DNA of 64,000 nucleotides from the NCBI RefSeq assembly GCF_900103935.1, contig NZ_FNIC01000003.1:372001-436000 (forward strand), in the 5' to 3' direction. Origin of the DNA: Nocardioides szechwanensis. Its GTDB lineage: Bacteria; Actinomycetota; Actinomycetes; Propionibacteriales; Nocardioidaceae. This document shows, one piece after another, positions 20,148-21,548 of this stretch. The notes beneath the pieces were generated by a model. That model saw only the letters and a list, made by a program, of their open reading frames with translations. It had not been told where the DNA came from and searched no databases. A program made the position numbers and the translations under genes. How positions within the stretch are numbered: position 1 is the stretch's first letter; each line of letters opens with the position of its first letter.

Positions 20148-21470
20148 CTAAGTGATGTCGACGGTGCCGGTTGGCGCGGTGATGAGCCACTGGCCGTGGG
20201 GTTCGTGCCAGAGGAAGGTGCCGGGTGCGAGGGACTGATATCGCCAACCCGCATGGGTCTTGAGGCGGTGGTGATGTCGACACAACGGGGCGAGGTTGGC
20301 CTCGGTGGTGGGGCCTCCTTCGAGCCACGGGATGAGGTGGTCGAGGTCGCAGGCCCGGGAAGGTCTCGCGCAGTGGGGGAACACGCAGGTCGGGTTGCGC
20401 AGGATCACTCGTTCGCGTAGTGACTCCGACGGGGTGTAGCCCTCGCAGCCGGGGTGGGAGTCGTTGAGGTCGATCACCGGGCGGACGGTGACGTGGCGGT
20501 CTGTGCGCAGGCACCAGGCGCGGAACGTGGCCTCGAGCCAGGTCCGGCCGTGCTCGTCACGGGCGAGGGGGTCGAGGCCGCGGACGGCTTCCTCGGTGAG
20601 GTGGACGTAGGCCACGACCTCCCGGGTCGGTGCCGGCGGCTCCTCGCCGTTGATCAGGGCGAGCGCGCGGGCGGGGTCGGCGAGGACCCCGATGGCCATC
20701 GCGCGGCGTACGTCGAGAGGCTCGGTGTTGCCGTCGCGCTTCAACGCGGCGGCGACCAACGAGAGTGCCTTGTCGAAGTCCTTGAGATCGGCCCACTCCG
20801 CGCGCAGGGCCATCTCCGCGACGCCGGTGTGGTTGAGCGAACGTTCGCTCAACCGTGCGTAGCGAGCGTCGAGGGCCTCGAGCTGTTCTTCCTCCCGCTG
20901 CTCGGGGTAGAGGAAGGTCATCGCTTGGTCGAGGACCCGGTCGAGGGTGACGGTGCCGACAGCGTGGGCGGTCCTGGCGAGCTCGGTGTCGACGTAGGCG
21001 GCGACGTCGGCGGGCTTGCCGATCACGGCCTGCGCGATCCTTCGGGCCCGCCACACCGGCACCTGGTGACTGACGACACACGCGAACACCCCAGGGAGCC
21101 GGTGCCGAAGGATCAGCGCGTCGCGCAGGAATGCCTTGCCCGCCGTGGTGGTCATCGCGTTGGCTGCGGCGAACGCCGCAGGGGCGTCCCAGGCCACGTC
21201 GGGGATGCCGAACCACTCCAGGTCTTCGACGTCATCAGTGTCGCTGGGGCTGCCGTCTTCGTCACCGGACGCCGCCGGCGCGTGCCACGACGCGTCTCCC
21301 GGAACGAGCGGATGACTGTGCGCCCACGCGACCGCGAGCCGCAGCAGGTCGACCTCGGCCCGATCGGCCGTCGCCCGCGCGTCGCGCACCCGGGCGATCA
21401 GCTCTGCCGCGGTGGTGTCCTCCAACTCGCCGGCGTCGGGCCGGTTCTTGTCGAGGCGGGTGATGGACAT
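20148..21470 (-). CDS. DUF222-HNH endonuclease-domain protein (13E12 repeat family type)
   Basis: A 440-residue protein with an N-terminal helical DUF222 region (about 20-300) and a C-terminal HNH nuclease domain (about 340-400): CVFPHCARPSRACDLDH, then NLAPLCRHHHRLK, with the metal/catalytic His and paired Cys. This is the architecture of the mycobacterial REP13E12 proteins, several of which are in the LexA (SOS) regulon; their biological role is unclear. Start ATG 21470 was chosen because a near-consensus promoter ends five bases upstream; a longer frame from 21521 would run through that promoter. Actinobacteria often carry many copies of this family. Confidence 0.88.
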   Translation of the reverse strand: MSITRLDKNRPDAGELEDTTAAELIARVRDARATADRAEVDLLRLAVAWAHSHPLVPGDASWHAPAASGDEDGSPSDTDDVEDLEWFGIPDVAWDAPAAFAAANAMTTTAGKAFLRDALILRHRLPGVFACVVSHQVPVWRARRIAQAVIGKPADVAAYVDTELARTAHAVGTVTLDRVLDQAMTFLYPEQREEEQLEALDARYARLSERSLNHTGVAEMALRAEWADLKDFDKALSLVAAALKRDGNTEPLDVRRAMAIGVLADPARALALINGEEPPAPTREVVAYVHLTEEAVRGLDPLARDEHGRTWLEATFRAWCLRTDRHVTVRPVIDLNDSHPGCEGYTPSESLRERVILRNPTCVFPHCARPSRACDLDHLIPWLEGGPTTEANLAPLCRHHHRLKTHAGWRYQSLAPGTFLWHEPHGQWLITAPTGTVDIT

Positions 21471-21475
21471 GGTCC

Positions 21476-21505
21476 ATACTAAACGAACGTATGTTTGCTT
21501 GTCAA
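21476..21505 (-). promoter_or_regulatory. Consensus leaderless promoter with SOS-box-like operator
   Basis: On the minus strand TTGACA (21505-21500), an 18-base spacer and TAGTAT (21481-21476) form a near-perfect housekeeping promoter. Only five bases separate it from ATG 21470. The spacer holds CAAACATACGTTCGT. Over positions 21498-21483 it matches nine of twelve fixed bases of the mycobacterial LexA box TCGAAC-N4-GTTCGA. Confidence 0.75.
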
Positions 21506-21548
21506 GCAGCAGATCCGCCAACGGACTCGGCTTCTGGGGAGGCTCGGG

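Follow-up and report, generated by a model that had tools for sequence, protein, structure and literature searches.

The 13E12 genes of Mycobacterium tuberculosis form the closest described system. According to the available parts of two papers, 13E12-family genes belong to the LexA regulon of M. tuberculosis (PMC5005354, PMC4181829), and the first of them bears out what the original prediction had stated about several REP13E12 proteins. In the portions at hand, these genes are further said to have characteristics of mobile elements that DNA damage activates (PMC5005354, which cites Davis et al. 2002), a mismatch-repair role is proposed for the 13E12 HNH proteins (PMC4181829), and gene conversion is described as frequent at REP13E12 loci (PMC13061034, a preprint). 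The accessible text of another study reports that mitomycin C induction of five putative HNH endonucleases, unnamed there, requires RecA in M. tuberculosis (PMC8151990). Two regulatory sequences, likewise taken from partial texts, are used for comparison: the RecA-NDp promoter of mycobacteria, tTGTCRgtg-8 nt-TannnT (PMC5656591), and the lexA box TCGAACGTGTGTTT, which LexA of Streptomyces venezuelae binds in vitro (PMC9380542) and which is close to the box studied here as read on the plus strand, CGAACGTATGTTTG.

The window is the whole 64-kb stretch of DNA that was analysed, and the window gene is the HNH gene on its minus strand (Table 1). Its family resembles M. tuberculosis 13E12, as presented in the available part of PMC4181829, in being multi-copy, in having putative members in the LexA regulon and in encoding HNH proteins. 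But the window gene is of a divergent subfamily without Pfam DUF222 match and comes from another genus, its box lies inside the -35/-10 spacer, and most copies in its own genome carry the RecA-NDp motif instead. Since LexA control of 13E12 genes is known in M. tuberculosis, the idea for the window gene is not new, and the LexA reading of this gene extends a known kind. Our open-access literature search returned no report of the breadth of damage control or of operators over the start codon, none of LexA control of the family outside mycobacteria, and none linking RecA-NDp/PafBC to DUF222.

We know of no role for the DUF222-HNH genes, a large multi-copy actinobacterial family that is tied here to the broken-DNA response. 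If nearly all copies in one genome answer to damage through two separate regulators, the question of function narrows to damaged DNA and becomes testable, and the family promoters are ready reporters.

Promoter of the window gene

The promoter 30-mer at 21476-21505, TTGACAAGCAAACATACGTTCGTTTAGTAT on the minus strand, leads into the gene in the order TTGACA-AGCAAACATACGTTCGTT-TAGTAT-GGACC-ATG. This is just the arrangement that had been described, TTGACA-18-TAGTAT five bases from the ATG, with GGACC between the -10 hexamer and the ATG at 21470-21468. The pattern TTGACA-N18-TANNAT has a single occurrence in the window and none in 100 shuffles. Because the ATG sits 5 nt after the -10, the transcript is predicted to be leaderless. 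The longest ORF of the gene begins upstream of the promoter, at a TTG at 21521, and the layout of the paralogue and the homologues favours the ATG as the start.

Table 1. Features of the window gene and its promoter
Feature	Position	Strand	Remark
ORF of 440 aa, stand-alone HNH protein, assigned to the DUF222-HNH group (divergent subfamily)	20148..21470	-	
HNH domain, residues 366-406	20253..20375	-	PF01844, E 4.9e-7; conserved Cys, Asp-His, His in alignment
-35 hexamer TTGACA	21500..21505	-	cTTG-like element at same place in homologues
LexA-box-like palindrome CAAACATACGTTCG (plus strand CGAACGTATGTTTG)	21484..21497	.	within -35/-10 spacer
-10 hexamer TAGTAT	21476..21481	-	TAGAAT-like consensus among homologues
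ATG start codon	21468..21470	-	5 nt past -10; similar geometry in paralogue and homologues

Read from the sequence, the spacer palindrome has one mismatch to CGAAC-N4-GTTCG (9 of 10 fixed bases), and the claimed agreement with nine of the twelve fixed bases of TCGAAC-N4-GTTCGA is correct. As a signal significant within the window by itself the box is rejected: four one-mismatch boxes were observed against 2.99 expected, and 34 of 100 shuffles had at least four. Such boxes come at about three per window by chance, so this one needs support from outside the window.

Gene product and neighbouring genes

The window gene had been called a DUF222-HNH gene. The HNH part stands, with 30.2 bits against the Pfam cut-off of 21.4, and the product is a predicted endonuclease. 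The Pfam DUF222 model (PF02720) gave no match at E≤1, and DUF222 homology comes instead through the paralogue P0002 (C12:112774), which is 77% identical to the window protein and matches DUF222 with 31 bits against a cut-off of 24.4. The window protein also matched, at E≤1e-3, a local DUF222 HMM. This HMM was made from 59 ORFs chosen at PF02720 loci, and some of these may be mispicked. In the wide sense its place in the DUF222-HNH group holds, as judged by homology rather than by Pfam score. The promoter of the paralogue has the same layout as that of the window gene, with a perfect box.

The predicted structure (mean pLDDT 76.4, pTM 0.57) shows a helical N-terminal part ahead of the HNH domain at the C-terminus. 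Its best PDB matches are the HNH domains of ScoMcrA, EcoKMcrA and the Gme HNH nickase, and they are weak; Foldseek returned nothing at E≤0.001, and the helical part had no confident structural match. The domain, C-terminal in the window protein, recalls those of ScoMcrA, the Gme HNH nickase, IscB and Cas9 through weak matches, but with none at that Foldseek threshold. From the translations, we take the upstream neighbour to be an HMG-CoA-lyase-like gene; downstream there are a small ORF and, presumably, a dihydrofolate-reductase-like gene.

LexA boxes of the own genome

We searched the own genome with CGAACNNNNGTTYG (CGAAC-N4-GTTYG) and identified 16 distinct sites. They make up 15 rows in the forward direction and 14 in the reverse, where the reversed pattern, used as control, gave 1 and 2. 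The lexA gene, recognised by its LexA_DNA_bind and Peptidase_S24 domains, carries the box CAAACACCTGTTCG, identical to the window box at all ten fixed positions, and the window box is one off the recA box. So the comparison proposed with the original prediction found the lexA and recA boxes not clearly different from that of the window gene, which by this match is a putative member of the LexA/SOS regulon of its genome. CGAAC-N4-GTTCG occurred at recA, ruvC and a dnaE-type (PHP/DNA_pol3_alpha) gene, and further boxes at a LysM gene divergent from lexA, a 2OG-Fe(II) oxygenase (AlkB-like) gene and a DUF6504 gene. Four of the 16 sites (L034, L035, L041, L046) are inside or at the start of other ORFs, so not each match is an operator, and L039 and L044 were left without gene assignment. 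Three sites, that of the window gene included, are at family promoters, where 0.03 would be expected (P ~5e-6, binomial with 350 bp per gene).

Nine boxes outside the family were used to build a scoring matrix, on which the window box reached 11.6 and the paralogue box 14.1, compared with 22.3-29.1 for the nine training boxes scored on themselves. The flanks of the window box do not fit the matrix and its core is one mismatch off. Because of this difference in score, LexA repression may be weaker at the window box.

Conservation of the box among homologues

Matches to the window protein at E≤1e-50 were present in 101 of 147 genus genomes. We examined 31 loci, namely the window gene, the paralogue and 29 homologue loci, one per genome, whose products share 38-65% identity with the window protein over the BLAST alignment. 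Of these 29 loci, 15 have a box within one mismatch; counting all 31, the number is 17, and 11 have a perfect box. The genes behind these counts, as behind the family and sample counts below, were picked by BLAST, match strand or local HMM, since choosing the longest GC3-biased ORF sometimes hits the wrong strand or the wrong start. The other 14 homologue loci had no box within one mismatch from -250 to +120 of the start of the longest ORF. At the 19 loci with two mismatches or fewer, cTTG-like and TAGAAT-like elements are in register around the box. The box lies across the promoter, and 15 of the 29 homologue loci have retained it. One of these 19 loci, L271, looks spurious.

The box might be a chance near-match in a strong constitutive promoter, and the window gene then would not be controlled by LexA. 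The chance frequency of one-mismatch boxes, the low matrix score and the 14 of 29 homologue loci without box would all suit this explanation. It is improbable, however, in view of the lexA box that agrees at all fixed positions, the perfect box at the same place in the paralogue and the box that 15 of 29 homologue loci have kept. We consider LexA control of the window gene likely on these comparisons, and the original reading of a LexA-box promoter is supported.

From the sequences, the conservation, the enrichment and the family-wide pattern described below, we infer LexA binding and damage induction. The palindrome in the spacer of this presumably strong and probably leaderless promoter would be the operator, and LexA, the DNA-damage repressor of bacteria, would block RNA polymerase when bound there. 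DNA damage would cause RecA-stimulated self-cleavage of LexA and free the promoter. The solitary HNH endonuclease would then be made together with RecA, RuvC and the dnaE-type polymerase, and might process or recombine damaged DNA.

Two damage motifs at the family genes

The own genome has 25 family genes, 23 of them with readable promoters; C13:10 and C6:257, cut at contig starts, were excluded. The scan of the other family promoters, which had also been proposed, gave a LexA box within one mismatch at six of the 23 genes (L002, L004, L017, L018, L029 and the window gene) and the RecA-NDp (PafBC) motif TGTCRGTG-N8-TNNNNT at 14 others, a union of 20 of 23. One of the RecA-NDp genes, L006, additionally has a two-mismatch LexA box. 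Among the three genes without either motif, L007 and L005 are one base off the RecA-NDp motif and L001 is weak. Judged by these motifs, the scan shows damage-type promoters to be the rule for the family in this genome, presumably via two regulators.

The RecA-NDp pattern had 34 matches in the genome, whereas its reverse had 1. Besides the 14 at family genes, matches lie upstream of recA, polA and uvrB, and several of the remainder were left without gene assignment. The sister genes and these three genes share the motif of the mycobacterial RecA-NDp/PafBC promoters, but most of the family copies have T or G in place of A as the second base of the -10, and PafBC control of them is putative. The window gene, unlike those promoters, lacks TGTCRGTG-N8-TNNNNT. 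A pair of WYL-domain genes 1 kb apart (C10:904454 and 905476) has the arrangement expected of pafBC.

One more of the 34 matches is at L275 (C5:32627), an HNH gene without Pfam DUF222, where TTGAACACATGTTCGAG spans a start codon downstream of the RecA-NDp motif. Four of the 18 contigs of the genome apparently have an end within a DUF222 gene (C13:10, C6:257, C16:270608, C9:410822), as would result from repeats breaking an assembly.

Motifs in other genomes

DUF222-HNH matches were present in 140 of 196 class genomes, and within the genus sample a single genome had as many as 43 matching stretches. The LexA box was found at 13 of 29 genes of the genus sample (control windows 1/201) and the RecA-NDp motif at 3, with a union of 16 (control 1/201). 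The class sample, 29 of 30 loci after L105 was dropped for too little upstream sequence, gave 16 genes with the LexA box (control 9/190), 4 with RecA-NDp and 19 with either (control 11/190). Reversed motifs occurred at 0 of 29 genes in each sample. Among 40 copies from six genomes, of which L100 and L115 had already been counted in the class sample, 15 had the LexA box (control 9/275), 5 RecA-NDp and 20 either (control 10/275). Because the controls are mostly coding DNA and the sampled genes are related, these contrasts overstate independence and are descriptive; the genus and class genes were picked by the local HMM, and taking the best HMM match per genome is not random sampling. In the genome G034, all 16 fetched copies, which are mutually related, had a RecA-NDp promoter. 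Outside the own genome, roughly one sampled gene in two had neither motif at these thresholds, and the related-genome samples agree in part with the pattern of the own genome.

Several of the copies from the genome G150 (L481, L485-L488) have a CGAAAGTAAGTTCT-like two-mismatch box, mostly at about -100, which is perhaps a lineage-specific LexA variant.

LexA boxes over the start codon

Several copies have the box lying across the ATG, as in TATAATCGAAAACATGTTCGAG at L018, and its right half-site therefore encodes Met-Phe-Glu or Met-Phe-Asp. We scanned genome contigs with TANNNTCGAANNNATGTTCGA and obtained at least 117 stretches at no fewer than 80 loci, with ORFs of at least 20 aa at 69 of 80. 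Among the matches listed, Pfam DUF222 was found in 27 of these 69 downstream ORFs, followed in frequency by HNH (4) and UvrD (3), while RmuC and RuvC each occurred once. The local HMM classed as DUF222-like 30 of the 59 actinobacterial loci among the matches listed and none of the 21 others, the taxa being taken from record titles. The SOS motif of M. tuberculosis is given as MKWMTCGAAMRYWTGTTCGA in the available part of PMC4181829, and such a motif would allow a box over the start codon.

Again among the matches listed, TGTCRR at the RecA-NDp spacing occurred in 8 of 30 DUF222-like start-codon-box loci, and TGTCRR anywhere in the same 25 bp in 9 of 29 other actinobacterial loci, which include shortened ORFs that may be DUF222. 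The two are about equally common, and so this counts against dual control in the start-codon-box scan.

Dispersed copies and possible roles of the nuclease

Two copies of the own genome, L010 and L016, have 93% identity over 1311 bp. Counted per 100 bp, their identity is 96-100% across the RecA-NDp promoter and the first 800 bp, and their flanks are unrelated from 78 bp before the motif and from just after the ORF. Among the G034 copies (L424-L439), many pairwise alignments begin near -74 and others extend 200-435 bp upstream. On these alignments, the repeated unit is taken to be the promoter plus the ORF. The median dN/dS of ten G034 copies was 0.15 over 45 pairs (range 0.10-0.21), and such low values fit a homing-like as well as a host role.

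For the job of the nuclease we favour the processing of damaged or stalled DNA, and such a host role is put forward tentatively. Its main rival is a homing-like selfish unit, in which the dispersed promoter plus ORF would cut related loci and spread, or be homogenised, by gene conversion when the recombination machinery is induced, with damage control timing its activity. The near identity of L010 and L016 inside unrelated flanks, the RecA-NDp promoter in 16 of 16 fetched G034 copies with many alignments starting near -74, and the gene conversion at REP13E12 loci in the available part of PMC13061034 (a preprint) speak for such a unit. But neither integrase nor target duplication nor empty site was found at the G034 copies, at L010/L016 or at the HMG-CoA-lyase-like loci of relatives, and plasmids and phages yielded few matches to the window protein at E≤1e-5 (5 of 72,556 and 2 of 50,697 records, respectively). 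At those HMG-CoA-lyase-like loci, 0 of 16 (15 genomes) had a family gene in the 1.5 kb flanks, with the neighbour at 44-55% identity and perhaps in non-orthologous places. We regard a homing-like unit as possible, though rather unlikely.

An anti-phage or anti-plasmid nuclease under damage control has little probability. The HNH domain does resemble those of McrA-type restriction enzymes, with matches to 5zmm and 6ghc that do not reach E≤0.001, and another family member, P0003, had a weak PADLOC match to a type II restriction enzyme (E 0.0013). Against this, neither the window protein nor its paralogue had a PADLOC match at E≤0.01, and no partner or modification gene was recognised beside the window gene in the ORF list of the window. 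A damage-triggered suicide nuclease, destroying the chromosome of cells damaged beyond repair, is very unlikely: the M. smegmatis HNH nuclease MSMEG_1275, perhaps not a DUF222 protein, cuts chromosomal DNA and inhibits growth when overexpressed, but the effect was seen in 1 of 5 overexpressed HNH proteins (PMC9416677, available part), and more than 20 copies in one genome are hard to reconcile with suicide. Phage cargo is unlikely, as our scan confirmed no relative of the window protein in viral contigs, and the start-codon-box scan of viral contigs (at least 80 loci) gave 0 of 68 DUF222-like ORFs of at least 20 aa among the matches listed.

DnaA-box-like sites and PPF tails

Of the hexamers in the 120 bp ahead of the damage elements, TCCACA showed the strongest enrichment, with 36 of 92 compared with 61 of 1466 control windows, and TTNTCCACA occurred in 16 of 92 against 1 of 1466; the reversed hexamer was not enriched there (4 of 92 vs 67 of 1466). 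The high-affinity DnaA boxes of M. tuberculosis and S. coelicolor are given as TTGTCCACA in the accessible text of PMC4285127. In the own genome, the DnaA-box-like core was present at 7 of 12 family RecA-NDp sites examined, compared with 1 of 18 RecA-NDp and 0 of 9 LexA sites outside the family. The window gene, read from its sequence, has no DnaA-box-like site.

TCCACA or TTNTCCACA stands upstream of the damage elements of family genes, often by about 30 bp (L274, L277, L279, L285, L289, L293, L297; L249, L251, L257, L258, L260). By eye, an inverted-repeat-like CTCAGAA...TTCTGAG around CCCTTGTGGATAAGGG can be seen in the 70 bp before the RecA-NDp motif of own copies (L274-L302).

Some products end in PPF, for example DDEPPPF. 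Among the matches listed, this end was found in 9 of 25 full-length DUF222-like start-codon-box ORFs, and in a stricter set of those in 5 of 11 against 0 of 312 other ORFs. None of 29 genus ORFs had it, and in the class (29 ORFs) and homologue (28 ORFs) sets there was one each, which speaks against an SSB-like tail as a general feature of the family, and the window protein lacks it.

The DUF222-HNH genes could be damage-timed units of promoter plus ORF throughout the Actinomycetes, under LexA, PafBC or both, some with operators over the start codon, many with DnaA-box-like sites and some with SSB-like acidic PPF tails, whose nuclease would be recruited to stalled or damaged replication forks and promote recombination between dispersed copies. 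Taken as a whole, we consider this proposal speculative and on balance doubtful.

The main SSBs of eight genomes examined end in DDEPPF, DEEPPF or SEEPPF. Mostly acidic PPF tails that look like the SSB tails of the same genomes were seen at L128, L143, L151, L173, L178, L105 and L260.
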